Below, piece after piece: positions 1-16,496 of a DNA stretch of 64,000 bases. Source of the stretch: Haliscomenobacteraceae bacterium. GTDB taxonomy: Bacteria > Bacteroidota > Bacteroidia > Chitinophagales > Saprospiraceae. Position 1 is the stretch's first letter; every line of letters starts with the position of its first letter. The notes beneath the pieces were generated by a model. It had not been told where the DNA came from. It did no database searches and worked only from the letters and a program-made list of their open reading frames with translations. The translations under genes were made by a program, and so were the position numbers. Location of the stretch: the NCBI GenBank assembly GCA_947501115.1, contig CANMVX010000001.1, positions 62,001 to 126,000 of the forward strand, read 5' to 3'.

Positions 1-487
1 ACCTTCTAATGTTTCTCTCTATTCTGTAATGGGTAACGTTTATGATAATTTACACCAGAAAACAACTAAAGATAATGGTGATCCTGTGGTTGCTGATGGT
101 TATTTTGCTAAGTCACTGGAGTATTTTAATAAGGCTATAGAAATGGATCCTAAAAATGTAGAGGCTCTTTACAGCATTGGTGCCCTTTACTATAATAAGG
201 CTGCATTAACTTCTCAAAAAATGAATGCGCTAAGTGAGGATTATTCTAAAGAAGGTCTTAAAAAGTTTAATGACCTTAAAGCTCAGGTTTTCAAACAGTT
301 CGATGAATCTTTACCTTACTTTCAAAGAGCTGAAGCGCTTAATCCAAATGATACTAATACATTAATCGCTTTAAAAGAAATATATGCTAAAAAGGATCAG
401 CTGGATCTAAGCAAGGAATTTAAAGCAAGATTGGAGTTAGTTCAAGGTGGTGGAAAAAATGATAAAAGTTATTTTCCTAATAACTAA
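1..487 (+). CDS. TPR-repeat protein, C-terminal part (5' end outside window)
   Basis: The reading frame is open from base 2 with no start needed, so the gene begins before the window. The ATG at 29 is therefore most likely internal. The visible part carries at least two tetratricopeptide-like helical pairs, with the usual pattern of a Y-F-x-K-A-[IL]-E-x-[DN]-P-x-[ND] turn: KAIEMDPKNVEALYSIGALY and, later, RAEALNPNDTNTLIALKEIY. TPR arrays are protein-protein interaction scaffolds. In Bacteroidota they are common in periplasmic and outer-membrane assemblies, but location cannot be judged without the N-terminus. The protein ends in a polar, glycine- and lysine-rich tail. A strong terminator follows immediately, so this is the last gene of its transcript. 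Confidence 0.85.
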   Translation, partial: PSNVSLYSVMGNVYDNLHQKTTKDNGDPVVADGYFAKSLEYFNKAIEMDPKNVEALYSIGALYYNKAALTSQKMNALSEDYSKEGLKKFNDLKAQVFKQFDESLPYFQRAEALNPNDTNTLIALKEIYAKKDQLDLSKEFKARLELVQGGGKNDKSYFPNN

Positions 488-507
488 ATAGCTCTGTATT
501 AATTTCT

Positions 508-555
508 ATTGGCCGCTTTTGCCCTTGGGTGAAAGCGGCCAATTTATTTTTTTTG
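508..555 (+). terminator. Rho-independent terminator after the TPR gene
   Basis: A perfect 12-bp inverted repeat (508-519 and 532-543, GGCCGCTTT core) with a 12-nt loop is followed by a run of T residues at 546-554. It lies 20 bases after the TPR stop codon and separates that gene from the PKD protein that starts at 619. Confidence 0.9.
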
Positions 556-582
556 ATTTTATTCCTTTTTTGCGTACATTTC
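553..582 (+). promoter_or_regulatory. Putative Bacteroidota promoter of the PKD type A gene
   Basis: TTG at 553-555, exactly 19 bases, then TACATTTC at 575-582. This matches the Bacteroidota sigma-A form TTG-N19-TAnnTTTG except for the last base. Transcription would start near 589, leaving a leader of about 30 bases before the ATG at 619. Confidence 0.5.
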
Positions 583-618
583 AGGCTTATTTAATATTCC
601 GATAGTAATCTTAATATT

Positions 619-3600
619 ATGAAATTCATTCACTTGTGTTTTTTTGGGTTAGTATATACCTGTGCTATCAATGTGTCTTTCCTTTCCGCTCAATCTACTT
701 GTGAAGTTCCCTGTTCAAGGAATGATTGTGGTGCAGTAAATTATGACGTTTCTCCTATTGATTCCCTGGTTTGTGAAGGTTCCATATTGCGATTCAAAAA
801 TAATACAGCGATTCAAACATATACTGGGCTTGTAATTCGATGGGGTGACGGTAAGCAAGACACCGTATTTCAATTAAATGATTTTTATCATAAATATGAT
901 TTGCCCGAATCATTGAAGGCTTCCTGCCAAAATGACACAATTTTAAGGTTAACAGTATGTATAACTGCATTCAAACAATGTAACGAAGGATTTACCTGCA
1001 GCCAAAAAGTTCAATCTTTTCCAATTAAAATTGCGTTAAAACCTAAAGCTGCATTTGTACCCTCTGCAACCACAGCCTGTGTAGGAGCAAGACTTAGTTT
1101 TCAAAATAAAACTTGTTTCTCAAATGCAGCTCTTTACACCTGGCGATATTCTACTTTTCGTATCACAAATATTAGAGATATTAATCTGGATTATGATTTG
1201 CCAGGGCAATATGATGTAGAACTAACTGCAAGGAATAGTTGTGGCGCTGATTCTGTAAAACAGGTCATTACCATTTTGGAAAAACCAAAGGCCGATATTA
1301 TTATTGATACCCAGCAGTTTTGTTATCCAATATCAGTGAGGTTGAAAAATAAACAAACAAACTCATCTGATGGTGTTTGGAAAATTACAGGAGATACCTC
1401 TGTTTGGGAGTCTGTACTTTCCTTTCCTTCCGGCGATTCAACATGGATAAGATTTAAACGCTTGGGTGCTATTAATATAAAACTGTTAACCTCTAATGGT
1501 TGTGGGGCCGATTCTATTTCTATGCCCTTTATTCTTAAATCAACGCCTTTTTTTAAAACTGATTCAGAGGTAAATTTATGTCAGGAGGGTTTCATTTCCC
1601 CTGAATCGTTGCTTTTTACCTATGATAAGCTAAGAATAAATTCTCTAATTTGGAAAGTTAATAATGAAAGTCCTTTTACGGCACAGGGAAGTACCTTCCA
1701 ACCTGCATTTTTTAAAAAAAATGGGACTATCGATTTACAAACCAATGGACAATGCGGTACCTTTCACCATACCATTCGAATACAAGTATTTCCAAAAGAT
1801 ACATTGAAATTATCAAAAAAAGCGGTTTCGTTTTGCTCCAATGATGCACCAGTTCAGTTAACAGCTTCTCCAGCTGGAACCTGGTCGGGTTTTGGTATTT
1901 CCTCCATGGGAAGGATAGATCCTTCTTTATTCCTAAATAAATCCAAAGGAATCGTTTATTTTGATGCTTCAAATCCTTATTGTACCCTTCGTGATTCTGT
2001 TTCTCTTACAATTACAGATCCTATGACAGTGGCTTTAGCCCCTGTTTCTCCTCTTTGTGAAAATGAAGAGTTTACGCCTATATATGCAGTAAATGGTAAT
2101 TTTACAGGGATAAAATGGATAGTTAATGGAGGCTCTGCTACAAATCTTAATGGTTTAGACCCTGGGAAAATAAGATTTTCTAATCCAGGCGTGTTTGGTA
2201 TTACCCTTCAAGCTACCAATATTTGTGGAACTGTTTTTGATACAACTACCGTCAGGGTTTTTTCTAAACCCATTATGGAATCTTTATCTGTTTCCTCTGC
2301 GTGTATAGGTGATAAAAGTGACCTTAGATTAAGTTTGTCCAATAGAGATAATGAGACATTGAAAATCTCCATTTCTTTGTCGGGTTCTCCTCTTTTTGAT
2401 ACCGTTATCACCGGAAATACGTTGATCTGGTCTTTTAGACCATTTGTCAACATTGGAAATTATCCGTTAAAAGTGGTTGTTTCAAAAGGGGCAAATTGTA
2501 CTGCTGAACTCATTTCTGAATTAAAAATTATTCAAAAACCTAGTCTTTCTCTTGCTAAGTTAAATCCATTTTGTTCTAATATTGAGTTTACGCCCTCTTT
2601 AACTACCTCAGGAACTTATGAAACCCTAAAGTGGTCCTTTCCTGGTGGTATTCCATCGTCTTTTGTCGGGTTAAATCCTGTTAAAGTCAAATATAATATT
2701 ACCGGTAAGTTTACCGTAAAGGTAGAAGGGGTAAGTTCCTGTGGTTCTTCTGCAGACTCTCTGCAGCTTGATGTTATTGAACAACCCAATATATCCAGAT
2801 TTACTGCAACGCCTGTTTGTTTGGGGAACGAATCTTCTGTGAGTATGAAATGGTCAAATCTTTCAGGTAATCCCGTAAAAGTTCAATTATTCCAATCGGG
2901 AAATATTTTGTTAGACACTACAGTGAAGGGTGACATTATTGATTACAAGTATTTTCCTCCAAAAATAAATGGTCTATACCCTTTAACTTTAGTAACTACC
3001 GCTGGAAATCAATGTAAGAGTGAATCCAGGACAGAAGTAAATGTCTATTCTTCTCCACCCGTTTCCATCCTGGATTTAAAAAGTAATTTATGTATTGCCA
3101 CAGATAAAATTGAACTAAAAGGAAATCCCACAGGAGGAAAGTTTTCTGGTTTAGGCGTTATTGATTTGTTAAATGGTAAATTTCAGTTACCCATAGGTAC
3201 TGGTATTGCGGATCGTTGGATTTATTATGATTATACCGATAGTGGGGGATGTAAAGGCAGAGACTCTCTCTTTTTGAAAGAAATAAAGCAATCGCCCACA
3301 CTCCAATTTGAAAACCTTATTACTTCTTATTGTAAAAGTGATAAATGGATAGAATTTAAAGTAAAACCGACGGGTGGTTTATTTAAAATTGGAAGTGGGC
3401 CTTTAGTGGAATCAGTGAATAAGGATGTAGGGCTATATCGTTTTAAACCATTAACGTCAGGAGAATTTGCTATTTCTTACCGTTATAGTGATAATTCTGG
3501 TTGCCTGGATTCGCTGGATTGGAAATTTTCCGTTGCTGATAAATTTCCTTTTGACCCTGCGGTGGATACTTTTATTTTGTCCGGCCAGAAATTAACCATT

Positions 3601-4029
3601 GGTAAACCTGCTATAGCCGGATATTCATATCGTTGGTTTGATGGTTCAACACAATCGACTTATACGGTGGAAGATCCAGGTATTTATACCCTGGAGGTAT
3701 TTAATGTAGCTTCAGGGTGTTCTGTGGTGGACACCATTAAAGTATCTTTTGGTGGGGTGAATAGCATTAAGGAATCTTTACAAAGTATAAGTTTATTAGA
3801 TGTTTATCCTAATCCATGTAATGAATATCTATTTTTAAAAAATAAAAATAGGGATAATCAAAAAGCTAAATTATATCCGATTCGTGTGCTGGATGTTTAT
3901 GGAAAAGTACTGAAGACTGTTGAAATTTCCTCTTTTGAGGAAGAAATTATGATTGATGTTAGTTTTCTCCCAAGTGGTATGTATTTTATTGAAGGCTACG
4001 GGAAAACACAACGGGTAATAAAGATATAA
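619..4029 (+). CDS. Giant secreted PKD-like repeat protein with T9SS type A sorting domain
   Basis: An 1136-residue exported protein. A signal peptide covers about residues 1-25, ending near SAQS. A cysteine-rich N-terminal segment (NDCGAVNYDVSP) precedes a PKD-like module with the RWGDGKQDT turn, and many immunoglobulin-like repeats follow, each with a single Cys in a C-x-[GND]-x-x-F/S type motif. The last 75 or so residues (YPNPCNEY, then VLDVYGKVLK and FLPSGMYFIEG) are a classic T9SS type A C-terminal sorting domain, so the protein should cross the outer membrane and be anchored or released. PKD repeats usually serve adhesion or act as stalks; no catalytic domain is visible. Its N-terminus is clearly related to that of the 1624-residue protein at 9908-14782. 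It is convergent with the ankyrin gene, with 7 bases between stops. Confidence 0.85.
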   Translation: MKFIHLCFFGLVYTCAINVSFLSAQSTCEVPCSRNDCGAVNYDVSPIDSLVCEGSILRFKNNTAIQTYTGLVIRWGDGKQDTVFQLNDFYHKYDLPESLKASCQNDTILRLTVCITAFKQCNEGFTCSQKVQSFPIKIALKPKAAFVPSATTACVGARLSFQNKTCFSNAALYTWRYSTFRITNIRDINLDYDLPGQYDVELTARNSCGADSVKQVITILEKPKADIIIDTQQFCYPISVRLKNKQTNSSDGVWKITGDTSVWESVLSFPSGDSTWIRFKRLGAINIKLLTSNGCGADSISMPFILKSTPFFKTDSEVNLCQEGFISPESLLFTYDKLRINSLIWKVNNESPFTAQGSTFQPAFFKKNGTIDLQTNGQCGTFHHTIRIQVFPKDTLKLSKKAVSFCSNDAPVQLTASPAGTWSGFGISSMGRIDPSLFLNKSKGIVYFDASNPYCTLRDSVSLTITDPMTVALAPVSPLCENEEFTPIYAVNGNFTGIKWIVNGGSATNLNGLDPGKIRFSNPGVFGITLQATNICGTVFDTTTVRVFSKPIMESLSVSSACIGDKSDLRLSLSNRDNETLKISISLSGSPLFDTVITGNTLIWSFRPFVNIGNYPLKVVVSKGANCTAELISELKIIQKPSLSLAKLNPFCSNIEFTPSLTTSGTYETLKWSFPGGIPSSFVGLNPVKVKYNITGKFTVKVEGVSSCGSSADSLQLDVIEQPNISRFTATPVCLGNESSVSMKWSNLSGNPVKVQLFQSGNILLDTTVKGDIIDYKYFPPKINGLYPLTLVTTAGNQCKSESRTEVNVYSSPPVSILDLKSNLCIATDKIELKGNPTGGKFSGLGVIDLLNGKFQLPIGTGIADRWIYYDYTDSGGCKGRDSLFLKEIKQSPTLQFENLITSYCKSDKWIEFKVKPTGGLFKIGSGPLVESVNKDVGLYRFKPLTSGEFAISYRYSDNSGCLDSLDWKFSVADKFPFDPAVDTFILSGQKLTIGKPAIAGYSYRWFDGSTQSTYTVEDPGIYTLEVFNVASGCSVVDTIKVSFGGVNSIKESLQSISLLDVYPNPCNEYLFLKNKNRDNQKAKLYPIRVLDVYGKVLKTVEISSFEEEIMIDVSFLPSGMYFIEGYGKTQRVIKI

Positions 4030-4036
4030 TGGAGAT

Positions 4037-6340
4037 CTAGAATTCTTTCAATTTGTATTTTTCAATAATCCATTGGCTTCCCTGGAAGTTGTTTTCTACC
4101 TGAAACCCAAAATAATTTCCTATTGATTTTGGCAGTGTGGTTGTTAACAGGGTACTATCATTTAACCTAAACTCAAACTGGCTTTCATCTTTTTTTATTC
4201 TTAATCTTACTTCCTTAGTATTTCTTTTTAATTCAATGGAGCCTGATTTAATGATTTCCTTATTGTTTTTGAGTTGCCATCTACCTGATGAGTTTATTGT
4301 TATTGACCATTTATTATTTTTTGAAGATGAAAAAATAACACCGAAGTCTCCACTTTCTTCCGTTATTGGTATAGACAAAAAGCAAGAAAATTGATAGTTT
4401 GCTTGGAGTGATAAATCAAAAGGGTACATTCTGAATAGAGAATTATTGAAAACCAGGTGTTCATTTTCATTTATAAACGAACCATTTATATTTCTATTAA
4501 ACGGACTATTAGCTTGAAATGCATCAAGGAAGGAAAAAAGATGGGTACTATAATCATTTACTACCTTTCTCATTTCCTCTGATTCAATGCGGGCATTGAA
4601 TTCATTTTTTGTTAAAAAGGGTGGAATAGTAGCACCATTAGAAAGAAGTATTTTGGCCAAATCTGGTAAATCTAAGGCAAGGGTGTAAAGTAAAGGAGTA
4701 ATTCCTTTTGAGTCTGAAAAATCAGGATCTGCGCCTGCACCAAGAAGTTTATTTACCAGGTATTTGTTGTTCAGGGTGATAGCATGAATAAGAGGTGTTT
4801 CGCCATTTTTCTCCTGACGGGTATCCATGTTTACGCGCTGTTCAATCAAATAGTCCAGCACTTTTGGTTGATTAAAAGCGACGGCGGTCCATGGAGCAGA
4901 CCAACCTTTTAGCGCTGGATTTGATGTATTTTTTTCCTGAACATCTAAAGGGATTTCACCCTTTTCGTTTAAAAATTCAAGTAAATCTACATCGCCATTT
5001 ACTATGGCAAGAACAATTGGGCTAGTATAATCATGTTGGTTAACGGTAATCACTTGTTGTTCAGGGTTGCGATAATCAGCACAGGCCATTACCATTTTTT
5101 TTACTTGTTGGGTGTTTCCTTTAACTATTTCCAACAAAAGGGGATTTCCATTGCATTGAACGGGTGGCGAAACAATAGCAGGAATGGCAAAAACTACGGT
5201 TAAAACAAGTATAAAAAGAGCTGCAAACAACACCCATTTTCTTTTGGGTTTTTCTTTTAGAGTAACTGATTCAGTTTTGGGTTTTCCTGTGATTAATTTA
5301 TCTACAATGGTAATTTCATCCTCTCCTATCTCTAAAAAATCATCAATGATTAATTCTTTATGAGATGATATTTTACTATTTTTCGCCGGTACTGTTTCTT
5401 TGGGACTTATTTTTTCGCCCAAGTTTAAAAAAAACAGAAGGGCTTCAGATGAGTCTTTTCCAAAACTTTCATCTAAGGCTTCCTTAAAAAGGGCTACGCT
5501 TAACTTTCTGTTATTCAATAAGGAAAATAAATGATTAATATCATTATAAGGAATGACTAATTGTAATTGAGCTTTATTTTCTCTTATAGTTTTTTCCTTT
5601 TCTGCAATAGTTAATGCTAATTTTTGAGAGGTTAATTGAAAGGCAATGGGTTTATTGGCCACGCTTAATTCACCATTCCATATTTTTTCTTTAGAAGTAA
5701 TGAAGTTTTCAGCTATTTTAAAAGCTTCTTTCAGCACATTTTCTTTAGTAACTTTGGTAACTGTTCCGGACTTTTGAAGGACTTCGTTCAAAACTAATTG
5801 GGAAAAGACTAATTTTTTGAAATCAATTTCTCCTGATTTGGTCATTTGGTCTGTTTTGAATGACGAAGGATCATGAGCGTCTAACAAACTAACAGATAAA
5901 TGATAATCAGCAAAAAGGGTGTCCATTACCTTTTCAAATTTATTGGTATCATGGTTCTTAAAGGATTTTTCAACGAAAATTTTGTGAAATTCATTATCCT
6001 TTAGAGATGCTAACATCCATAGATAAAAATCTTCTATTTCTGTTTTAAATGATGGGGTAATGTTTGAATCTACAATTAAAAGAATATTGCTTAATAATTT
6101 TTCCGAATTAAAAAGAGCGTCGGATTGTTCAAAGGCTATTTCTATCCTTGATCTTAAAAAATCTTCAATAAATTGAAAAATAATAGGTTGTAATTGAGCT
6201 ATATTTTTTACAATGGGAAGATTCTTTACTTCTTTGAATTCAATTTCATGATGATAATAGTACAGCTTTATTCTTTTAGTATGATTACTAAAGGTTATAA
6301 TTAATACATCGCCATTTAACAAAGAATTCCCGTCAGCCAT
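4037..6340 (-). CDS. Membrane-anchored ankyrin-repeat protein with LamG-like C-terminus
   Basis: A 767-residue protein that I do not recognise as a named family. Residues 1-365 have no signal peptide and match no domain I can name. A basic stretch (KPKRK, 364-368) precedes a single transmembrane helix at about 369-391. About 396-575 form ankyrin repeats (NGETPLIHAITLNN, SKGITPLLYTLAL). About 600-767 is a beta-rich segment of concanavalin/LamG or DUF1080-like character. By the positive-inside rule the N-terminal part is cytoplasmic and the ankyrin and LamG-like parts are periplasmic. It is the last gene of the minus-strand cluster 4037-9797, separated from the preceding gene by 93 bases that hold a promoter-like -7 box. 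Topology and domain naming are inference from sequence pattern. Confidence 0.7.
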   Translation of the reverse strand: MADGNSLLNGDVLIITFSNHTKRIKLYYYHHEIEFKEVKNLPIVKNIAQLQPIIFQFIEDFLRSRIEIAFEQSDALFNSEKLLSNILLIVDSNITPSFKTEIEDFYLWMLASLKDNEFHKIFVEKSFKNHDTNKFEKVMDTLFADYHLSVSLLDAHDPSSFKTDQMTKSGEIDFKKLVFSQLVLNEVLQKSGTVTKVTKENVLKEAFKIAENFITSKEKIWNGELSVANKPIAFQLTSQKLALTIAEKEKTIRENKAQLQLVIPYNDINHLFSLLNNRKLSVALFKEALDESFGKDSSEALLFFLNLGEKISPKETVPAKNSKISSHKELIIDDFLEIGEDEITIVDKLITGKPKTESVTLKEKPKRKWVLFAALFILVLTVVFAIPAIVSPPVQCNGNPLLLEIVKGNTQQVKKMVMACADYRNPEQQVITVNQHDYTSPIVLAIVNGDVDLLEFLNEKGEIPLDVQEKNTSNPALKGWSAPWTAVAFNQPKVLDYLIEQRVNMDTRQEKNGETPLIHAITLNNKYLVNKLLGAGADPDFSDSKGITPLLYTLALDLPDLAKILLSNGATIPPFLTKNEFNARIESEEMRKVVNDYSTHLFSFLDAFQANSPFNRNINGSFINENEHLVFNNSLFRMYPFDLSLQANYQFSCFLSIPITEESGDFGVIFSSSKNNKWSITINSSGRWQLKNNKEIIKSGSIELKRNTKEVRLRIKKDESQFEFRLNDSTLLTTTLPKSIGNYFGFQVENNFQGSQWIIEKYKLKEF

Positions 6341-6398
6341 ACAAAAGAATGAGCTACATTAATTAAATTGACTGGGAGTAAATTAGGAAAATTAAACA

Positions 6399-6406
6399 CA
6401 AATATA
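6399..6406 (-). promoter_or_regulatory. Putative -7 box for the ankyrin gene
   Basis: On the minus strand this reads TATATTTG, a full match to TAnnTTTG. No TTG is found at the 19-base spacing. Transcription would start near 6392, giving a leader of about 50 bases. It suggests the ankyrin gene can be expressed separately from the three genes upstream. Confidence 0.35.
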
Positions 6407-6433
6407 GTTTAAATTAATCTTTCACACTATTAA

Positions 6434-7576
6434 TCAGGGTTTTATTTTGCCAAATATATCCGTTTTAACAATTTTATATCCTGTTGGATCTATTCCCAAC
6501 ATGGCGTATCCAAAATCATTTGAAATAATCAGATCTACTATTTTTTCGTTTGGTTTTTCAGGAGGAAATACACTTTCCCAAAGTAGCTCTCCAGCAGCGT
6601 TCAATCGAATTAATCTATGATTATAATTTCGATTGATTGAAACATTTCCTTCTCTTTCTAATAAAATAATTTGACCTTCTTTCTCGCAAATAATTTTTAT
6701 GCCTTTGCTTATTCCTAAATTAGATTCTTTTGTATATTCCCATTCTCTGTCACCATTTAGGGAATAAGAAGTTACAGAGGTTTTATATCCTTTTAAGGTT
6801 TTTTGTGCAGCGGTTATAAAAATAGATTTTCCGTTTCCTGAAATACCTCCTTCTTGGGTAAGATAAATATTTTGTAAAGGTTTTGATAAGGTTAGTATTC
6901 CCTTGTTTGTGAACCTTAGTAAAAGAGCATTACCATTGGGTCTGGCTGTCAATAAATAATAAGTACCGTTATCTAATAAATACCCACCAATAGGTTGAAT
7001 ATTTGTTTCGTAGGTATGTATCCATTCTGATCCACCTCCTGCTTTTAAAGAACTCATGAATAAACGACTATCTTGTGTTGATTGCTTCATGGTTCCGGCT
7101 ATAATCCAGTTTCCTTCTTTTGTTGTTGAACAATGAAAGCCTTCAGAACTTTCAATAAGTGGAAATTTTTTTGATAAATCACCACTAACCACTGATTGCA
7201 ACGTAGGAGATACACCATTAGAATACTGAAGAAAGGTAATTCCTTCTTTACGTTGTACTAAGGTGCCGAAGGCATTTTGTCCTATTCCATTTTGAATATC
7301 TGAGGCTATTCCTGTACCTGGAGAAATTTCAAGATTGGCAGATTTACCATCGGCACTTATTTGGAGGAGATTAATTTCCTTTTTGCTATTCGTACCTATA
7401 ATTCTAAAGGTTCCGTCTGTAATTTGAATGAACTGATGCGCATATTGGGTGTCAATGGAGGGAGAAATAGGGTAATCTTGAGAAAATGTATTCAATGGAA
7501 ATTTTTCTAAATCCCACTTAACACAAGATGGTATCCATATTCCAATCATCAGTATTCCTACAAGTACTTTTTTCAT
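6434..7576 (-). CDS. Lipoprotein, beta-propeller-like, unknown function
   Basis: A 380-residue protein with a lipoprotein signal (WIPSC, Cys18), so it should be lipid-anchored in the periplasm or on the outer membrane. After the signal it consists of repeated beta-strand units of about 45 residues with G-rich turns and recurring patterns such as WIIAGTMK, YYLLTARPNG, SIFITAAQKT, GEL-L-W-E and FGYAMLGI. This resembles the WD40/PQQ-type propeller-like proteins of Bacteroidota that report 'element and value' repeats. No enzyme motif is seen. It starts 3 bases after the stop of the 457-residue gene, so the two are cotranscribed. The propeller assignment is inference from repeat spacing. Confidence 0.65.
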   Translation of the reverse strand: MKKVLVGILMIGIWIPSCVKWDLEKFPLNTFSQDYPISPSIDTQYAHQFIQITDGTFRIIGTNSKKEINLLQISADGKSANLEISPGTGIASDIQNGIGQNAFGTLVQRKEGITFLQYSNGVSPTLQSVVSGDLSKKFPLIESSEGFHCSTTKEGNWIIAGTMKQSTQDSRLFMSSLKAGGGSEWIHTYETNIQPIGGYLLDNGTYYLLTARPNGNALLLRFTNKGILTLSKPLQNIYLTQEGGISGNGKSIFITAAQKTLKGYKTSVTSYSLNGDREWEYTKESNLGISKGIKIICEKEGQIILLEREGNVSINRNYNHRLIRLNAAGELLWESVFPPEKPNEKIVDLIISNDFGYAMLGIDPTGYKIVKTDIFGKIKP

Positions 7577-7579
7577 CGA

Positions 7580-8953
7580 TTAGAATTTTATTCTGTAACC
7601 TGCTACGGGTTGATTTACAAATGGGTTCGGGCCATTTTTTTGGTATCCAATAGTTGGTGATGGCACGGTATTCATAAATAATTCTCGGCTGGTTCGTTGT
7701 GCTTTTTTATCTTTCACAAAAATATGAGCATCATTTAGTATCCAAATACCTAAACTTACAGCAGCACTTATCAAACTTCGATGATGCCATTTGTTTGCAT
7801 TAAGATACGCAGTTTCATTTTCAGTAACTGAAAATGTTTTTTTATGAATGGCGTGATCAATATCAGATTGCCTTTTACTTACTGCTGCGAAAAAACTGCT
7901 TCCCAACCATACGCCTGTTACGATGGGCCAAATGGGAATGTTAGGTTTATTCTCTTTCATAGCCTGAAAATGTCTGATTCCAAATCCAGGCACTAAATAG
8001 GTAAATGGTGATACAGGTTTATAGTCTTTGGGTGGTGTGGCCGATTTTAGTGTTAAATCATTCTTTGTAGTATCAAGTAGGGCGATTTCAGAGGTTAAAA
8101 TACTTACATCGGGTAAGGTACAAGCCACTTCGGGTAGATTTTCACACAACTTTTCGTCTGTGACCTTGCTTATTCTTATAAACGATACTTGCCAATAGAA
8201 TTTATCTGGCGCACTTTGACTTAATTTTGTTTCAGGATCTAAAAAACAGCGTAGCTCAAAAAACATTTCCTTGCATATCGTCTTTTCGACAGGTAATCCG
8301 TTTTGTAAAAAGCCAATTCGTTCCCGAACAGGAAGAGATCCCCGATATACTTCGTACAGCAAGTTATCTGGATGTTTTTGCCCATTTGGAAGGTAAATAG
8401 GACTTGAAAAACCGGCAGATTTAAAAACAACGGTTTTACCAGATTCCTCACTGGGTAATGCCCAACAAATATTAATTCCAGTTTGCTCCTTAGGTTTCTC
8501 AATTAACAAATCCATATAAGTATCTAAATTCAGATAACTTTCATTTATCTGTCCACTCTCTCCTAAAGTCATACCGTAATATGGCGTACTTCCTGATATT
8601 TCTCCACGTGCATCTTTAAAAAGAGTTAAAGCGTGTCTTTTAGCTGCTTCTTTTAGGCGTAAAATTTTTTCATCATCACTAATTATTCTAAAACATTGAT
8701 GTAACTCCTGAGCCATTCCGTAGGCTAAGTTTCCGAAACTCAGTTTCTTTTCATTTAAAGATTCTTCTATTTCCTGCCTTTTTATACTCCATGATTCTGC
8801 TGTATGCCCAACAGGAATATTATTAAGTTTAGGTGCTTCAAACGTGAATTTATTCCCATTTTTATAAATGCCGTCTTGGGCAATTAATGGGATGGAACTT
8901 ACATGGACTATCGAAATCCATACCAGGAATAGTCTTATTGAGGGGCTATTCAT
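7580..8953 (-). CDS. Exported protein with C-terminal DUF5683-like hydrophobic region
   Basis: A 457-residue protein with an N-terminal signal peptide (about residues 1-25, ending LIAQ). The central part, about 30-300, is soluble with several cysteines and matches no family I know. The C-terminal third begins with a YLVPGFGIRHFQ segment, followed by two hydrophobic stretches near 340-358 and 392-410. This is reminiscent of DUF5683-type Bacteroidota membrane proteins, which begin with a PG-x-G-Q segment. Its start overlaps the 3' end of the upstream PKD lipoprotein gene by 8 bases, and the next gene starts 3 bases after its stop, so translation is probably coupled across three genes. The DUF5683 comparison is tentative. 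Confidence 0.6.
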   Translation of the reverse strand: MNSPSIRLFLVWISIVHVSSIPLIAQDGIYKNGNKFTFEAPKLNNIPVGHTAESWSIKRQEIEESLNEKKLSFGNLAYGMAQELHQCFRIISDDEKILRLKEAAKRHALTLFKDARGEISGSTPYYGMTLGESGQINESYLNLDTYMDLLIEKPKEQTGINICWALPSEESGKTVVFKSAGFSSPIYLPNGQKHPDNLLYEVYRGSLPVRERIGFLQNGLPVEKTICKEMFFELRCFLDPETKLSQSAPDKFYWQVSFIRISKVTDEKLCENLPEVACTLPDVSILTSEIALLDTTKNDLTLKSATPPKDYKPVSPFTYLVPGFGIRHFQAMKENKPNIPIWPIVTGVWLGSSFFAAVSKRQSDIDHAIHKKTFSVTENETAYLNANKWHHRSLISAAVSLGIWILNDAHIFVKDKKAQRTSRELFMNTVPSPTIGYQKNGPNPFVNQPVAGYRIKF

Positions 8954-9797
8954 ATAAGGTAATCTTTGATAATAATGAACTTTCAGCAGCCGTTTCCATT
9001 TGTCTTACCCCGTTTATTACGGATAAGTCCATATAACCTTTTTCTTTATTTTGCTCTGTTCTTACTAAAAAATAATCGATGAACGAATCAATAGTAGCAA
9101 ATTTTCTGTTGCTTTTTCCCTGACTGGCTTGATTTAACTCGATGAGCATCGAGTTAGTTCTAAATAATTTTTTAAATTCATCTATACTTTTAAGCAGCCA
9201 TTTTTCATCATCTGAATAAGCTGCCTTTTGAATACTATTTATTTTATTTAAAACATATTCTGAAGAGCAAAGAACCAATATTTCAATACGATTGCGTTGG
9301 GTTTTGTCCGCATTGTATGCCTCAATTTTATACTGCCCGGGCTTTTGGAAAACATGAGATATCTTTTTTCCGGTATTGGTGGTTCCATCGCCCAACTGCC
9401 AGATTAATGCTGATTTAGTGTTTACATAAAAAGTTATGGGTTCACCTACCTCCAATCTGGAGGATGAAACTAAAATGGAAAACCCATTTCCCATTTTATC
9501 TGTAGTAATAGGGGCTTCACCGCCTTTAAACACCAGGTCGTTTGTATTTTGAATGGGTATAATGTTTTCGTCAATGACTTTTGGTTTGGCTAATTCTACG
9601 TCAGATTTTGATGGCACAACCTCATTCTCCGATCCTACAATTTCAAGCATTGCAAAGGAGGGAACCGTTATATTTAGCTCGTTTTGTTGCGGTGTTTTCG
9701 TTGATGACACTCTATCTTTGGTCTCACAAGCACTGAATAGAATTATACTCAATGCCAAAACAAAGATCAATAAAATTAATTTAAGGGGGGTACTCAT
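8946..9797 (-). CDS. Lipoprotein with one PKD domain
   Basis: A 283-residue protein. The signal ends in a lipobox (FSAC, Cys24). A low-complexity linker of about 70 residues leads to a single PKD domain at about 105-176, with the typical IWQLGDGTT turn and the closing pattern HVFQKPGQYKIEAYN. The C-terminal 100 residues are helical and of no recognised family. It is the first gene of the minus-strand cluster and overlaps the next gene by 8 bases. PKD domains bind proteins or carbohydrates, so it could act as a periplasmic or surface receptor for the cluster; that role is inference. Confidence 0.7.
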   Translation of the reverse strand: MSTPLKLILLIFVLALSIILFSACETKDRVSSTKTPQQNELNITVPSFAMLEIVGSENEVVPSKSDVELAKPKVIDENIIPIQNTNDLVFKGGEAPITTDKMGNGFSILVSSSRLEVGEPITFYVNTKSALIWQLGDGTTNTGKKISHVFQKPGQYKIEAYNADKTQRNRIEILVLCSSEYVLNKINSIQKAAYSDDEKWLLKSIDEFKKLFRTNSMLIELNQASQGKSNRKFATIDSFIDYFLVRTEQNKEKGYMDLSVINGVRQMETAAESSLLSKITLYE

Positions 9798-9843
9798 TTT
9801 AATATATTAATAATCAGTAATTTAAACTGCTTATAACTGTGGT

Positions 9844-9851
9844 CAAAAATA
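9844..9851 (-). promoter_or_regulatory. Putative -7 box of the four-gene envelope cluster
   Basis: On the minus strand this reads TATTTTTG, matching TAnnTTTG. A TTG lies only 14 bases upstream, not the usual 19. Transcription would start near 9837, about 40 bases before the lipoprotein start. The remainder of 9798-9907 is T-rich, with a 12-bp palindrome at 9894-9905. Confidence 0.35.
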
Positions 9852-9907
9852 CGATTTTCCCGTTACAATAGATTTTTTTTTCATTTTTTTTTCTTTGTTA
9901 ACAAAAA

Positions 9908-12900
9908 TTATCGCAAAATGCTAACGGAACCCGTAAAAATTTCCTTTTTTCCATTAACGAAGGTTACCACCGCCTGCCAAATATAAGCTCCTTGGGGAAG
10001 AATGGGGCCAATATTATTCTTACTTCCATTCCAACTCTCTGCGGGTGCATCAAGGTTTAATTTGTTGGAATACCACACTCTTTCCCCCCAGGGACTATAT
10101 ATCTGTATTTCATAAGCTGTAAGGCCTATGCCCACCGGCTTAAATACTTGAATCGCTGGATTATTTGCCGATGGTACTAAGGCATTGGGTGCATGAAAGG
10201 TTGTAATCCATTCTGGTTCAATAGATTTTGTTATTGTGTCTGAACAAAAAAAACCATTTAAATAGTCTGCATAAGCAATTAATTTTACTTCAATTTTTCT
10301 GTTAATACTATACTCATGAATAGGAGATAAAGCTTTTGAGGTAATGCCATCACCAAAATTCCAAAAGTATCGGGTTGAAAAATTAGATTTATTAGTGAAT
10401 TGTACTTCTCCAATAGTCCGTTCAATAAAATTAGTCCGGTAATCAAATTCAGCTTCAGGTGTTGGCAATACAGTAATGTTTTTAAGCAGTGTTAATGTAT
10501 CCTTGCATTTATCATTCTGAGCGGTAACCAATGTAATTGAAAAATCACCTACACGAGTAATGTTAATTAATGGATTTGCTTGCTCGCTTACCAATGTTGT
10601 ATTTAAAAACCATTGAAACTGATTGGCATTGTTACTTTTATTGTTAATCAATGGCGTTTTTCCTAAGCAAATAGTGGGTGACATAATATCAAAATCTGCA
10701 AAAGACTGCATATTGATTTTAATCTTTTTATTCAGTGAGTCCTTACATCCAAAATTATTTTTTGCAATTAAGGTAAGATCGTTTTCACCCTTTTTCTTGT
10801 CAGCAAAGAGTTGGGGTTCAACATCTGTGTAAATATCGTCTTGCCATTTCCACTCAAATTGGATGGAACCAAGCGATTTATTTTTGAGTCCTTCTATCAT
10901 TGAAAATTCACAAACTTCATCCTTTAACAGGGTGAAATTGGCCGTTGGCCTCGGATAAACAGAAATTTCAATGGGCCGCCCCTCTTCTTTACAACCAAAT
11001 CTATTGGTAGCTGTAAGCTTTACTTTTGCCGGACCACTTTTATTAAAAACATAACTTGGTTGGAGTTCAATCAGGGAGGGTAAATCTTCAAAATTCCATT
11101 GATAAGTGGAACCTGTTTCCACTTGATGTTTAAACTGAACCGATAAGGGTGGACATCCAGCTATTTTATCTGGCATAAAAGTTACATCGGGTAGGGGATG
11201 AATGGTTATGATTTTGTCTATCGTTGTTTTGCAAGCATTGATGGCTGAGGTAGCCGTTAACTTATTTAAATAGGTGCCTGGTAACTTATAGGTATGCTGC
11301 GCATTAATATTATTCGAAGTAGTTCCATCACCGTGCTGCCACAAAATACTGGATACATTACTCAAATCATTTATGGAGAATAAACTGGGTATTGTCTCAT
11401 TAAGACAGTAATTATCTTTATTTATCGGTGCAATTATGGGTGCAGGCCAAACGTTTATCTTCGTTTGTAAGGTGTCTGTTCCACATTTAGTAGCACCTAA
11501 TAATAAATTGTATTCACCAGAAGCTGTTAAGATTGGGTTAAAAGTGTTCTGATTTCCTGAAATAATTTTTCCGTCAGGCGATGTCAATTGCCAGTTGAGG
11601 GCAGCGCCAGAGGATGAAAAACTTTTAGCAGTTAGTTGAAAAGGGGGACATCCCTTCAATGATTCAATCTCAAAAAAGGCTTCTGTATCCCTTTTATAAA
11701 CCGATATTATTTTGTCCAAACTATCTTTTCCGCAAGCATTTTCTGTCCTTAAGGTAATTTTGTATTCTTTGTAATCCTTTCCATCAAGAAAGTATAATTG
11801 ATCTTCCGCTAATGAATCAAAGCTTAGATTTCCATTACCATAATCCCAAAAATATTGTAAAGGTCCACCTTCACTTACATTAGCCATCTTAACGGACAGT
11901 GGGGAACAACCTTCCAATGGAAAGGTGCCAAAAATAGCTTTCGGAAGGGGGTGTATTACAATTTCCTTGACATCTTTAATCTCAGCACAACTGTTTTTAG
12001 CAATAGCCTCAATTTTATAGATTGTATCTTTTTTTGTACCTTCTAGTTTCCACTTTGGGGGATCGGCACTTACAATAGTATCTCTGCCATTAATCCATGT
12101 GATGGATAAATTATCTCCTGAGGATATTTTATTTATTGAAACGGTGTAGGGAGCGCACGATTCATCGTCTGAAAGAGAAATACTTATGTTGGCTGGCGTT
12201 GAAACATTAAAGGTTGATTCTTTACTGGTTCGACAGTTTTTATCGTTTTTTACCTCTAACTTGAGGTTTTTAAGCCCCGGTTCTTTGAAAAGGAAGCTTG
12301 GATTTTTCTTATCGCTGTTTTGATTTTCTTCCGCAGTCCAACGAAATTCATTTCCACCCATACTTTTATTTTGCGGGCTAAATGCCTTATTTAAGCAAAT
12401 ATTATTGGGCAATATAAAATCTGCAGTTGGCGCAGTATTTAAATAAATGATTTTAGTTGCACAAGCCTTACAAGCTTTAAAATTTGGATCACTTAGGCAG
12501 TAAATAAATTTATTTTCACCAGATAGTAAAAGAGATGTATTGACTATAGCTGCGTCGGTACCCGATAAACCCGGTCCAGTCCAGGAACCTCCAGCGGGAA
12601 ATCCTCCCGTTAGTAAAAATGGGGAGGCATCGGGACAAATTTCCAAACGATCTCCAGCTGAAATAGTTAATCCTGGATTGAGTAAATTAATGGTAACGTT
12701 TCCCTCCTGAAAACAAGAAGTTTCAGGTCTGAAAACATATTGGTAAATGTGTTTCCCCGAACTTGGAATAGATAATTCTACTAATCCTTTTTGAGTATCT
12801 ACCCCTTTTCCTTTCCAGCTGCCTCCTGGAATATTTGAGGTAAGTTGGAATGACATGGCATCAATACAAAGCGTCGTATCTTTTGAGAGTGTAAGTGGGG

Positions 12901-14782
12901 GAGTGTTAGTTGATTTGGCAAAAATACTATCCCTGACAGAGCATCCGTAGCGATCATATTGAACATGTAATATTGATATTTCATTTTGCGGAAGCAATGT
13001 AGTATTTAAGGTGCCTTCCGATGAAATGACACCAGTTCCTGACCAGGTAAATTGTCCATTCGTTGAATCTACTTTCAAATCTGTTTCTACCAATAAGTTT
13101 GAAACTTTGTTGCTATTGCAAAACAAAATACTATCTGCTAAGGTCAGAACCGGAGGTTTATCTACCAGAATGACCTCTCTTGCAGTAATGCGACAGCCGT
13201 TCAATTTATCTAAGGTATAGGAAATATTAAATCGGCCTGGTCCGCTCAATACAGGTGAAAAAAGCCCACTTACGGGATCTACTCCTATGCCGGAATATAC
13301 TCCTCCTCCCGGCTGACCAAGTAATAATTTTGAAGCATCGCCTAAGCAAAATGAATCAACAACTAACGAAATGGCAGGTGTAGCTATAATGGCTATTTTA
13401 AATGAATCAGAGGCGCTGCAGCCCCCATTTCCTATTTGGTATGTCAATGTAATGGAGGTATTTTCAGGCAAATCCTTAGGGTAAAAAGTTCCCTTTATTG
13501 GATCAATAATTCCCTGTCCTTTCCAACGTCCTCCTAAAGGACTCGCTTTGAGCATTAAAGTGTCACCACCTGCACAAAATTGATTTGGATTTTCACTCAG
13601 GTTTATGCTCGGGTTTTGAATGACTGTAATGGGTATCCGATGGGTCAATGTGTTACAGACTTCCGACTCAATTTTCATGGTAACCGTACCTGATTTGGCA
13701 AATGTCAGCCCTTTGAAACTTTCAGAAGAATCTACGTTTCTATCTGCACCCTCGAAGGTCCAGGATATTGATTTTATGTCTCCACTGGAGGTAAATTTTA
13801 AATCTTTTTCGGTAATCACTGCTTTTTCACAAAAAACATTTGGGGTGTCTATTTGATACGTTGGCGGATTAAAAACCTTGTATTTCATAATACTTTTATC
13901 CATACCACAAACATTTTGTGAGGTATGAGTGATGGTGAAATCTCCTGTTTTTCTGGCGTTGATTTTTAAATCTTTGGAAGACAAGGAGTATGTTGTATCT
14001 AAAAATTTCCAGGAAAAGGTGTCTTTTGGTACGATTTCCCAACTTCCTCTTCCCCATAAATCATCATTCATCTTTAGTTGAATAACACCTGGGCCACAAA
14101 GTCCTTTCGCCGGATTAATAGTAAATCCTGCCTTTGGAAAATCAACTAAGCGGATAGATTTTGTAGTCGTATTAGAGCCACATTCATTAAAAGCGGTAAG
14201 TTTTACGTTGTAAATGCCAGTACTTGCGAAGGAATGGGTAGGATTCCTATCTGTGCTCGTTTTTCCGTCGCCAAATTCCCATAGATAGGTTTCTCCATGG
14301 CAACCATTTTCTTTGAAATTTATCGTTTTACCCAGACAATATTCGCTTTGAATATCAATGTTTGCCTCCGGATTTAATTTGACACTAACGACGGTGGTTG
14401 CTGTATTGCAACTCTTCTTTGTGCCACATTTTTTCTCCCCAATATAGCTGATTATTTGGTTGAATTTAGCGTTTGATTCACAACGTTTAAATGGTGAAGA
14501 ATAAGTGTAAACGTGTTTTATATCGTCATAATTTCGCACCGTATCTTTTTTACCATCTCCCCAATCAATATAAAAAACTTCAAAATCTTTAGTGGAACTT
14601 CTATTTTGTAAAATGACTGTTGCACCTTCACAAAACACATTGGAACCTATTGGACTATAGGTAGCAAAAACATCACCACAATCATTGTCATTACAGAGTG
14701 CAGTCTGGGCATTCAAACCTAATATATTAACATTAAGTACAATGCATATAAGTATAAATTTATAGTATCTCAATAATTTCAT
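9908..14782 (-). CDS. Giant PKD-repeat protein with T9SS type B (CHU_C) sorting domain
   Basis: A 1624-residue secreted protein. A signal peptide covers about residues 1-25 (ending LNAQ), followed by a cysteine-rich NDCGDVFATYSP segment and a long series of PKD and PKD-like Ig modules. The PKD turn recurs as IDWGDGKKDT, WEFGDGKTS, WDYGNGN, WQHGDGTTS and WNFGDGITS. The last 95 residues (TTFHAPNALVP, then YSPWGERVW, then PQGAYIWQAV and TGSVSI) are the gliding-motility-associated C-terminal domain (CHU_C), the type B T9SS signal. The PorP/SprF-like gene lies immediately upstream with 2 bases between, the usual partner arrangement. The protein is probably held at the surface by that partner. No enzyme domain is visible. 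Confidence 0.88.
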   Translation of the reverse strand: MKLLRYYKFILICIVLNVNILGLNAQTALCNDNDCGDVFATYSPIGSNVFCEGATVILQNRSSTKDFEVFYIDWGDGKKDTVRNYDDIKHVYTYSSPFKRCESNAKFNQIISYIGEKKCGTKKSCNTATTVVSVKLNPEANIDIQSEYCLGKTINFKENGCHGETYLWEFGDGKTSTDRNPTHSFASTGIYNVKLTAFNECGSNTTTKSIRLVDFPKAGFTINPAKGLCGPGVIQLKMNDDLWGRGSWEIVPKDTFSWKFLDTTYSLSSKDLKINARKTGDFTITHTSQNVCGMDKSIMKYKVFNPPTYQIDTPNVFCEKAVITEKDLKFTSSGDIKSISWTFEGADRNVDSSESFKGLTFAKSGTVTMKIESEVCNTLTHRIPITVIQNPSINLSENPNQFCAGGDTLMLKASPLGGRWKGQGIIDPIKGTFYPKDLPENTSITLTYQIGNGGCSASDSFKIAIIATPAISLVVDSFCLGDASKLLLGQPGGGVYSGIGVDPVSGLFSPVLSGPGRFNISYTLDKLNGCRITAREVILVDKPPVLTLADSILFCNSNKVSNLLVETDLKVDSTNGQFTWSGTGVISSEGTLNTTLLPQNEISILHVQYDRYGCSVRDSIFAKSTNTPPLTLSKDTTLCIDAMSFQLTSNIPGGSWKGKGVDTQKGLVELSIPSSGKHIYQYVFRPETSCFQEGNVTINLLNPGLTISAGDRLEICPDASPFLLTGGFPAGGSWTGPGLSGTDAAIVNTSLLLSGENKFIYCLSDPNFKACKACATKIIYLNTAPTADFILPNNICLNKAFSPQNKSMGGNEFRWTAEENQNSDKKNPSFLFKEPGLKNLKLEVKNDKNCRTSKESTFNVSTPANISISLSDDESCAPYTVSINKISSGDNLSITWINGRDTIVSADPPKWKLEGTKKDTIYKIEAIAKNSCAEIKDVKEIVIHPLPKAIFGTFPLEGCSPLSVKMANVSEGGPLQYFWDYGNGNLSFDSLAEDQLYFLDGKDYKEYKITLRTENACGKDSLDKIISVYKRDTEAFFEIESLKGCPPFQLTAKSFSSSGAALNWQLTSPDGKIISGNQNTFNPILTASGEYNLLLGATKCGTDTLQTKINVWPAPIIAPINKDNYCLNETIPSLFSINDLSNVSSILWQHGDGTTSNNINAQHTYKLPGTYLNKLTATSAINACKTTIDKIITIHPLPDVTFMPDKIAGCPPLSVQFKHQVETGSTYQWNFEDLPSLIELQPSYVFNKSGPAKVKLTATNRFGCKEEGRPIEISVYPRPTANFTLLKDEVCEFSMIEGLKNKSLGSIQFEWKWQDDIYTDVEPQLFADKKKGENDLTLIAKNNFGCKDSLNKKIKINMQSFADFDIMSPTICLGKTPLINNKSNNANQFQWFLNTTLVSEQANPLINITRVGDFSITLVTAQNDKCKDTLTLLKNITVLPTPEAEFDYRTNFIERTIGEVQFTNKSNFSTRYFWNFGDGITSKALSPIHEYSINRKIEVKLIAYADYLNGFFCSDTITKSIEPEWITTFHAPNALVPSANNPAIQVFKPVGIGLTAYEIQIYSPWGERVWYSNKLNLDAPAESWNGSKNNIGPILPQGAYIWQAVVTFVNGKKEIFTGSVSILR

Positions 14783-14784
14783 AT

Positions 14785-15963
14785 TTACCAGATATTTTCA
14801 TATAATTTCCGTCGCCCCCGACTAAAAGATGAACTGGGACATTGAACACCGGGATAAGCCATGGCATTGTCTTTGCCCAGGATACCACAACCGGGACTTT
14901 TGCTGAAATGAAAAGCCAGATTAGCCTCAAGAAAGGGACCAATATTATTTCTTAGACCAGTGAGGGGTATATTATAGGTGAATCCAAGCTCTATTTTTTT
15001 GTCTTTAAGAACGTTATGACCAAATCCCATTTGGAGGGAAAGCCATTGTGTATCATTATTTTGTTGAAAATTATTAATTTGTTGTACGAAAGTGCCAATA
15101 GAAAAATGTCTGTTTAACGAAAAATGAGAGCCTACATTCCAATAGTGAAGATTACTCTGCATTTCGAACGACAGGTGTGGTTTTACACTGACAAATTGAC
15201 CCAAATGATAATAAGGGATAAATTCAAATTGTACAAATCCATGAAACCGATAGGGTAGGGAAGTTTCCAACTGAAGAATGGACTCTGCTTGCCCCCAGTT
15301 TTTATCATTGCTCAGTCCAATTAAATGATGCATGGCTAATCCCCATAAAACGGTAGATGATTTTTTATTTTCACTGTTAAATAAAATACGATGGCTGAAC
15401 CCTACGGCAGGGGTGAAAAACCATTTAGTTCTATTGTTTAGTGGAGCGATAAAAGAGCTTTGATTCAGGTTTCCAAAAGCATCAAATGCGCCATATTTGG
15501 GGTCAAGTTGATCAGAAAAAACCAATTGATTAAAGTTTATAGCATTAAACTGCCAAGCGAGACCTATACCAAAGCGTATATTATGTACGGTACTTTTTCC
15601 TGTTTCAAATGGAGCTGTTCCAGCTATATTACCTCCTAAACGCATAGTTTTATAAATACCTGAACCTTCTTCATTGTATTCCGCATGCACATCATAATCA
15701 AAAATAGAGCAAGGGAGACTTTCTTCCATTTTGAATAACCCTGTTCTATAAGCATTTAGTTGTGGCGATTGCCACTGAGAAACAAATCGACCTGAAATAG
15801 AAAATGCTCCCCTGAAACCTGATAGAGAAGGATTGAAGGCTGATTCATTTCCCAAAAAATTTGAATAAAGTCTATCCTGAGAAATAACATTAAAAACGAC
15901 GCATAAAAATGAACAGGTGATAAAAAATACCCTTAATTTCGTCCCATTATTTATTATTTTCAT
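14785..15963 (-). CDS. PorP/SprF family type IX secretion system membrane protein
   Basis: A 392-residue protein with a signal peptide (ending VISQ) and a beta-barrel pattern of alternating hydrophobic strands. The start of the mature part (DRLYSNFLGNESAFNPSLSGF) is the family hallmark: a Y-x-Q/S-x-F-x-N-x-x-x-x-NP-x-x-x-G pattern in which the NPSLSG turn is diagnostic. PorP/SprF proteins sit in the outer membrane and partner with type B cargo of the T9SS, which is exactly the next gene. The pair should be one operon with 2 bases between. The start codon at 15963 is only 22 bases from the divergent nuclease start at 15986, so each promoter must lie at least partly in the other gene. A -7-like element (15981-15988, one mismatch) fits this. 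Confidence 0.88.
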   Translation of the reverse strand: MKIINNGTKLRVFFITCSFLCVVFNVISQDRLYSNFLGNESAFNPSLSGFRGAFSISGRFVSQWQSPQLNAYRTGLFKMEESLPCSIFDYDVHAEYNEEGSGIYKTMRLGGNIAGTAPFETGKSTVHNIRFGIGLAWQFNAINFNQLVFSDQLDPKYGAFDAFGNLNQSSFIAPLNNRTKWFFTPAVGFSHRILFNSENKKSSTVLWGLAMHHLIGLSNDKNWGQAESILQLETSLPYRFHGFVQFEFIPYYHLGQFVSVKPHLSFEMQSNLHYWNVGSHFSLNRHFSIGTFVQQINNFQQNNDTQWLSLQMGFGHNVLKDKKIELGFTYNIPLTGLRNNIGPFLEANLAFHFSKSPGCGILGKDNAMAYPGVQCPSSSFSRGRRKLYENIW

Positions 15964-15985
15964 TTCAATAAATTATAATTCAAAA

Positions 15986-16492
15986 ATGATGAAATTTAGA
16001 TTAATTAATTCAAAAACGAAGTTCTTATTTGTTTTATTTATCTTATTTTTTGCCTTTTCGACTAAAAGTTCCTTCTTTTCACAAAGTAATGAATTTTTGA
16101 GAGTTATCGGTATTAAAGACGGAGATACCGTTGTTTTATTAACAGCAGCTAAGACAGAAATAACTGTCCGCTTATCTGAAATCGATGCGCCTGAAAGGAA
16201 ACAAGCCTTTGGAACGGTTTCCCGTACTTTCCTCTCTGACCTTATTTTTGGAAAAGAAGTTAAGCTAGAAAAATTGGGTACTGATAGGTACGGTCGTACC
16301 TTGGGCTTTATTTTTTTGCGAAATGGTACGAATGTCAATCTTGAAATGGTAAAAAATGGCATGGCATGGCAATACGAAAAATATTCAAAAAGTGCGGTAT
16401 TGAAAAAAGCGCAGGCTTCTGCTAAATCCATGAGCGTCGGTCTTTGGAGAGACCCAAATCCTGTGGCACCTTGGGAATTCAGACGTAAATAA
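15986..16492 (+). CDS. Secreted thermonuclease (SNase family)
   Basis: A staphylococcal-nuclease-fold protein of 169 residues from the ATG at 15986. The upstream in-frame ATG at 15917 would place 23 extra residues inside the divergent porP-like gene and break the signal peptide, so I reject it. The signal peptide is about residues 1-33. The mature domain has the family core: DGDTVVL, then VRLSEIDAPERKQ (which carries the first catalytic Arg and the Glu), then DRYGRTLGFIF (second catalytic Arg) and NGMAWQYEKYS. These enzymes cut DNA and RNA with calcium. The gene is convergent with the adenosine deaminase gene, with 4 bases between stops. Confidence 0.9.
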   Translation: MMKFRLINSKTKFLFVLFILFFAFSTKSSFFSQSNEFLRVIGIKDGDTVVLLTAAKTEITVRLSEIDAPERKQAFGTVSRTFLSDLIFGKEVKLEKLGTDRYGRTLGFIFLRNGTNVNLEMVKNGMAWQYEKYSKSAVLKKAQASAKSMSVGLWRDPNPVAPWEFRRK

Positions 16493-16496
16493 GATC

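Follow-up and report, generated by a model that had tools for sequence, protein, structure and literature searches.

An earlier annotation of this DNA, made from the sequence alone, had noted four adjacent genes for envelope-type proteins at positions 4037–9797 of the window (the whole analysed stretch of 64,000 nt, bases 62001–126000 of contig C1 in an assembly of 4.7 Mb, 175 contigs and 96.66% completeness). The locus raises the question whether these genes belong to one system and what such a system might do. It is carried by five records, all of them metagenome assemblies. The four-gene observation was confirmed in its open reading frames, overlap, gap, gene order and conservation. All four ORFs lie on the minus strand and encode, in order of transcription, a PKD lipoprotein of 283 aa (8946–9797, lipobox cysteine 24) with a helical-looking C-terminal region, an exported protein of 457 aa (7580–8953; from here: tail protein), a propeller-type lipoprotein of 380 aa (6434–7576, lipobox cysteine 18) and a membrane transducer-like protein of 767 aa (4037–6340; from here: ankyrin protein). 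The first three genes are packed as tightly as had been claimed, with an 8-base overlap followed by a 3-base gap, and a gap of 93 bases separates the propeller-type lipoprotein gene from the ankyrin gene.

The cluster is flanked by T9SS-related genes. Upstream and on the same strand lie the genes for a PKD giant of 1624 aa (9908–14782; PF18911, 183.1 bits) and a PorP/SprF-type outer-membrane protein (14785–15963; PF11751, 46.1 bits, cut-off 22.3). The giant ends in a type B-like T9SS tail, its CHU_C match of 26 bits lying just below the cut-off of 27, and the adjoining PorP/SprF-type protein is likely its partner. On the other side, a plus-strand gene convergent with the ankyrin gene encodes a type A T9SS-exported PKD protein of 1136 aa (619–4029; Por_Secre_tail 45 bits, cut-off 27).

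Within the genus, the four-gene order was identical in all six loci examined, the window and L009–L013, with L011 and L012 truncated where their contigs end; in one genus locus a contig end interrupts the ankyrin gene. Loci L009–L013 come partly from the same genomes as G390–G394, and counts from the two sets were not summed. Apart from the window, four genus loci extend far enough to include PorP and the 1624-aa giant, and this pair was syntenic in all of them. Comparison of the window with its genus relatives yielded dN/dS values of 0.078–0.134 for the four cluster genes and of 0.058–0.154 across seven genes. The ankyrin protein was found in six of the seven genus genomes, in one of them split across two contigs, and had no match in the seventh, G389. 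A DNA search of G389 matched no part of the region, flanks included, but was run without a positive control and is uninformative on absence.

The motif TAnnTTTG, the −7 box of Bacteroidota, is conserved upstream of both the PKD lipoprotein gene and the ankyrin gene in 6/6 loci. The minus-strand intergenic stretches 9798–9907 and 6341–6433 are thus candidate promoters of the three-gene unit and of the ankyrin gene, respectively. Because the motif also arose in shuffled gaps (351/5000 for the first gap and 680/5000 for the second), it supports separate transcription units only modestly. Terminator-like sites were listed in neither gap, and promoter- or terminator-like sites overall did not clearly exceed those in shuffled sequences. 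RNA folding of the gaps was no better than that of shuffles (z −0.19 for 9798–9907), and there was no Rfam match within window positions 1–17000.

The tail protein consists of a signal peptide, a possible NTF2/cystatin-like domain (residues 65–268) and two long tail helices (341–428). Its end had been called hydrophobic and DUF5683-like. Its hydropathy was moderate, with the best 19-residue segment at 1.53, below the value of 1.6 taken as threshold for membrane segments. Membership in DUF5683 was rejected: the protein matched no Pfam family at E ≤ 1 and seven tail-bearing relatives gave no match to this family either, assuming that the library holds the model. The structure model reached a pLDDT of 60.4; its matches to NTF2-like structures (Z 6.4–7.8) are at a level common by chance, and Foldseek returned no match at E ≤ 0.001, making the predicted fold suggestive only. 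Searches of PDB sequences with the tail and propeller proteins gave chance-level matches only. By sequence comparison, homology of the tail protein across genera is firm, with a BLASTP E-value of 2e-31 to the relative in genome G611 and hhalign values of 99.3 and 95.7%.

The spread of the locus was followed with the tail protein. A single-sequence search detected it in 2 of 149 genomes of the order, the window genome included, and a profile built from the genus only in 2 of 247 genomes of the class, namely the window's and one weak match. Widened profiles matched 9/248 family genomes in one sample and 18/398 in another. In the latter, matches were strong in ten genomes, six of the seven of the genus plus G044, G086, G611 and G699, which each belong to a different other genus of the Saprospiraceae; the remaining eight were weak and limited to the tail. 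A sample of 326 genomes of the phylum included four with matches to the tail protein, two of them strong and both within the Saprospiraceae, and no strong match outside this family.

In all five genera with strong matches, the gene directly downstream of the tail protein gene encodes a lipoprotein-like product, at distances of −13 to +4 bases. Such neighbours were scored by a simple rule, which also applied to 63 of 477 ORFs in the fetched stretches, a base rate that is not random because these stretches were picked for the module and related searches. The 380-aa protein of the window itself matched no Pfam family at E ≤ 1. Its assignment as a propeller is a putative one, derived from the PQQ_2 match of one relative (23.1 bits, below the cut-off of 27.6). 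Its homology across genera is moderate (BLASTP to G611 4e-7, hhalign 75.7 and 71.0%); against G044 alone, the alignment was limited to the signal region (0.001). The propeller profile matched 66 of 298 order genomes, while the module was present in five (G000, which is the window genome, G390, G393, G044 and G086). At the only non-module locus that was inspected for a tail protein, in G108, the propeller match (2.4e-11) had none beside it. A W-x-L-E-like stretch follows soon after the lipid cysteine in the window protein (6434–7576) and in lipoproteins of L069, L120 and L121; the pattern used in the search was derived from this very motif.

The PKD domain of the 283-aa lipoprotein was verified by Pfam (PKD_4, 32.5 bits, cut-off 27). 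A collinear weak relative exists in G611 (E 0.039 and 0.027) and has no Pfam match. Pfam detected PKD in the upstream protein in the window only, not in G611, G044, G086 or G699, and hhalign gave no link to the upstream proteins in the last three of these (0.2). The PKD lipoprotein is placed in the module because of its gene position.

The first-pass annotation had proposed co-occurrence of the four families as a test. Outside the strain, co-occurrence holds for the pair of tail protein and propeller lipoprotein, whose genes are direct neighbours in four further genera, each time close to a gene for a type A T9SS protein. The ankyrin protein is absent there, and the PKD lipoprotein is represented weakly at most (G611). 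The natural unit is thus not the cluster of four but the tail protein plus the propeller lipoprotein, accompanied by a type A T9SS-exported protein that adjoins the pair or lies convergent near it in 5/5 genera. The type A tails scored 26.1 bits in G044, 39.8 in G086, 34.5 in G611 and 27.0 in G699 (cut-off 27), and PKD was detected in this protein in two of the five genera, those of the window and G611. The window type A protein matched those of the foreign genera at 3e-18 to 1e-29; this similarity is not specific, as a giant from another family (f21) also matched it at 5e-21. Moreover, the type A proteins of G044, G086 and G699 are related to each other (35–37%), so that these genera are not wholly independent cases.

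The genes around the pair differ between genera. In G044, an operon-like run comprises genes for an exo/endonuclease-like protein, SrfB, SrfC (PF10139), a subtilase, a DO-GTPase2 (33.2 bits, cut-off 27) and several products without assignment, and ends with an unassigned TM protein, the tail protein, the propeller lipoprotein and the type A protein. G699 follows the same plan, with SrfB, SrfC and subtilase recognized by Pfam, the SrfB being a C-terminal fragment (29.8 bits, cut-off 27.1), and a GTPase-like gene without significant Pfam match. The run in G611 encodes FHA (by eye), kinase-FHA, ExbD-like (by eye), MotA/ExbB, FHA-trypsin, PP2C and kinase proteins and two small products, followed by a lipoprotein and then the tail/propeller pair; a kinase and a PKD protein of type A are encoded convergently. 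The MotA/ExbB protein of this FHA/kinase/PP2C run, with its ExbD-like partner (L066:8037–9629), shows weak similarity to ZorA. G086 has a protein that resembles the exo/endonuclease-like one of G044, then a TM protein, a lipoprotein (vWA-like by eye only, without Pfam match), the tail protein, the propeller lipoprotein and the type A protein, but no clear signalling core; its propeller gene is interrupted by a contig break, the two parts being linked through a stretch that they share.

Runs of SrfB/SrfC, subtilase and GTPase-like genes were seen at L035/L040 (G044), L116/L117 (G699) and L046/L047 (G137), two of the three ending in the envelope module. The run in G137, a genome of the same order, was read by eye beyond SrfB, and no module was seen in the fetched stretch. 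Among 14 weak or outside loci, five had a lipoprotein-like direct neighbour (G414, G530a, G194a, G194b and G1060). The direct neighbours at 11 such loci were, by Pfam, WD40 or Kelch proteins in seven (G442, G477, G530a, G530b, G564, G577 and G948), fn3-like in two (G099 and G414), PKD in one (G1060) and a weak match only in one (G194a). Small tail-bearing proteins lie beside WD40 and, at several loci, also Kelch-type lipoproteins in L069, L120, L121, L133 and L134. All five loci contain nSTAND1, three of them (L069, L121 and L133) CHAT as well, and L120 has a nucleotide cyclase.

In the window, the pair is followed by the ankyrin gene. Its product consists of an orphan N-terminal domain (residues 1–365), one TM segment (366–396), ankyrin repeats and a LamG-like end. 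Pfam bore out the ankyrin repeats (47.7 bits, cut-off 27.3). The LamG-like end is backed by alignment and by kinase-fused relatives, the match of which lies below the Pfam cut-off (9.8e-5). The Ank-LamG half aligns with proteins encoded by five genomes from a single genus within family f21, and in all five a Ser/Thr kinase recognized by Pfam precedes this ectodomain. Among the 149 order genomes, matches were to the ectodomain only, and the whole protein was matched only within the genus. ORFs similar to the window PKD proteins occur in the same fetched stretch as the kinase-ankyrin proteins in 5/5 f21 genomes; these loci (L030–L034) combine Ser/Thr kinase-TPR-Ank-LamG proteins with giants resembling those PKD proteins. 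In L030, the two are separated by a subtilase whose T9SS tail scores near the threshold.

In the window protein, the orphan 365-residue domain occupies the place of the kinase. No kinase was detected by Pfam in residues 1–340 or in the whole protein. The N-terminal 365 residues had no relative in Pfam, PDB sequences or the order genomes, and no convincing one among 130 neighbour proteins (hhalign best 6.7%). The model judged for this domain had a mean pLDDT of 41.8 and its listed PDB matches were mostly ankyrin-repeat proteins; this quality is too low to decide for or against an actin-like, kinase-like or SrfB-like fold. PHROGs gave ankyrin-region and chance-level matches only, and within the cluster PADLOC matched only the ankyrin repeats.

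We consider it possible, at a probability of roughly 0.37, that the module contacts T9SS-displayed proteins and passes their state to an inner-membrane partner. The pair of tail protein and propeller lipoprotein, joined in the window by the PKD lipoprotein, would form an envelope module that touches the 1136-aa type A protein at the surface, and probably the 1624-aa giant with its PorP partner as well, and would relay the state of these proteins inwards. The partner in the window would be the ankyrin protein, with an ectodomain that would dock to the module on the periplasmic side and an orphan domain that would work inside the cell, in the cytoplasm. The pair in related genera may connect to other partners, either kinases with a phosphatase or SrfB/SrfC with a GTPase-like protein. 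We infer the physical contact, the periplasmic topology, the direction and the ligand; the purpose would probably be outside-in sensing. The signalling reading is suggested by the swapped gene sets, with SrfB/SrfC/subtilase/GTPase-like genes in two genera and FHA/kinase/PP2C/ExbB genes in one, and by the ectodomain shared with kinases. Counting against it are the candidate promoter of the ankyrin gene and its absence from the loci of other genera, the propeller-profile matches without module, the rarity of the module and the situation in G086. Further points against it are the limited reach of PKD by Pfam (only the window's upstream protein, and the type A protein of two genera out of five), the moderate hydropathy of the tail, the lack of support for DUF5683, the relatedness of three of the genera's type A proteins, and a window genome in which neither DO-GTPase2 nor SrfB was detected. 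The earlier suggestion that these genes survey surface proteins is a fair guess; the first interpretation as a whole is partly supported, since the pair recurs outside the strain but the four genes are not one unit.

The constant T9SS neighbour suggests, alternatively, that the genes serve to keep T9SS-exported proteins at the outer membrane or to mature them there, in a PorE-like manner and without signalling, and the PorP and type B-like giant directly upstream fit this. We regard it as rather unlikely; the kinase, phosphatase and GTPase-like genes alongside would stay unexplained by it. PorE, which we take to be PG1058, combines OmpA-like and TPR domains, and Pfam detected neither in the four window proteins. 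Type B substrates are bound by PorP-like proteins according to PMC9143113, and the window cluster likewise joins a PorP-like protein and a type B-like PKD giant, then lipoproteins. Unlike in that system, the tail/propeller pair stands elsewhere beside type A substrates, and the window PorP had no relative among 104 ORFs of four foreign module loci.

That there is no system, and separate envelope genes with common binding domains became neighbours by chance, is improbable: PKD, ankyrin, propeller and LamG domains are indeed common, the upstream PKD lipoprotein gene is not clearly conserved beyond the genus and the candidate promoters are separate, but in five genera the genes for tail protein and propeller lipoprotein abut or overlap, amid surroundings that change. 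Slightly more doubtful still is a contact-dependent conflict or cell-fate system, in which recognition of a rival, phage or kin at the surface triggers an internal effector. The more distant tail proteins beside nSTAND1 (5/5 loci scanned), CHAT (three) and WD40 or Kelch proteins point in this direction, as do DO-GTPase systems, presented in PMC7159879 as conflict systems with membrane-near components. Yet no effector domain was found in the window cluster, where PADLOC matched ankyrin repeats only, and the CHAT/STAND loci have only the tail in common with the module.

With DO-GTPase (Kaur et al. 2020) and SrfB/SrfC operons the module shares its place at the end of the SrfB/SrfC runs in G044 and G699, the former including DO-GTPase2, whereas neither DO-GTPase2 (PF19993) nor SrfB (PF07520) was detected in the 96.66% complete window genome. 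The main text of Kaur et al. 2020 contains neither the term SrfB nor PKD. The f21 kinases resemble the window protein in their homologous Ank-LamG part and in the PKD-similar giants in the same stretch; the window protein differs in having the orphan domain instead of the kinase and in lacking the TPR part. A limited search of open-licence papers found no description of the module, nor one of a kinase with ankyrin ectodomain.

The recurring envelope genes suggest a system for sensing or display across the envelope, with a shared surface part that appears to be undescribed. A bolder version, which we consider unlikely, is that tail protein, propeller lipoprotein and T9SS-exported proteins are a plug-in surface head of the Saprospiraceae, recruited as receptor by different intracellular switches (kinase/phosphatase, GTPase-like/SrfBC, perhaps CHAT/STAND), and that the window ankyrin protein would carry a new class of intracellular output domain. 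The module provides gene families for finding further loci. If the sensing reading is true, T9SS-displayed proteins of Bacteroidota would have a way of sending signals inwards, and the outer half would be supplied for switch systems whose inputs are unknown.
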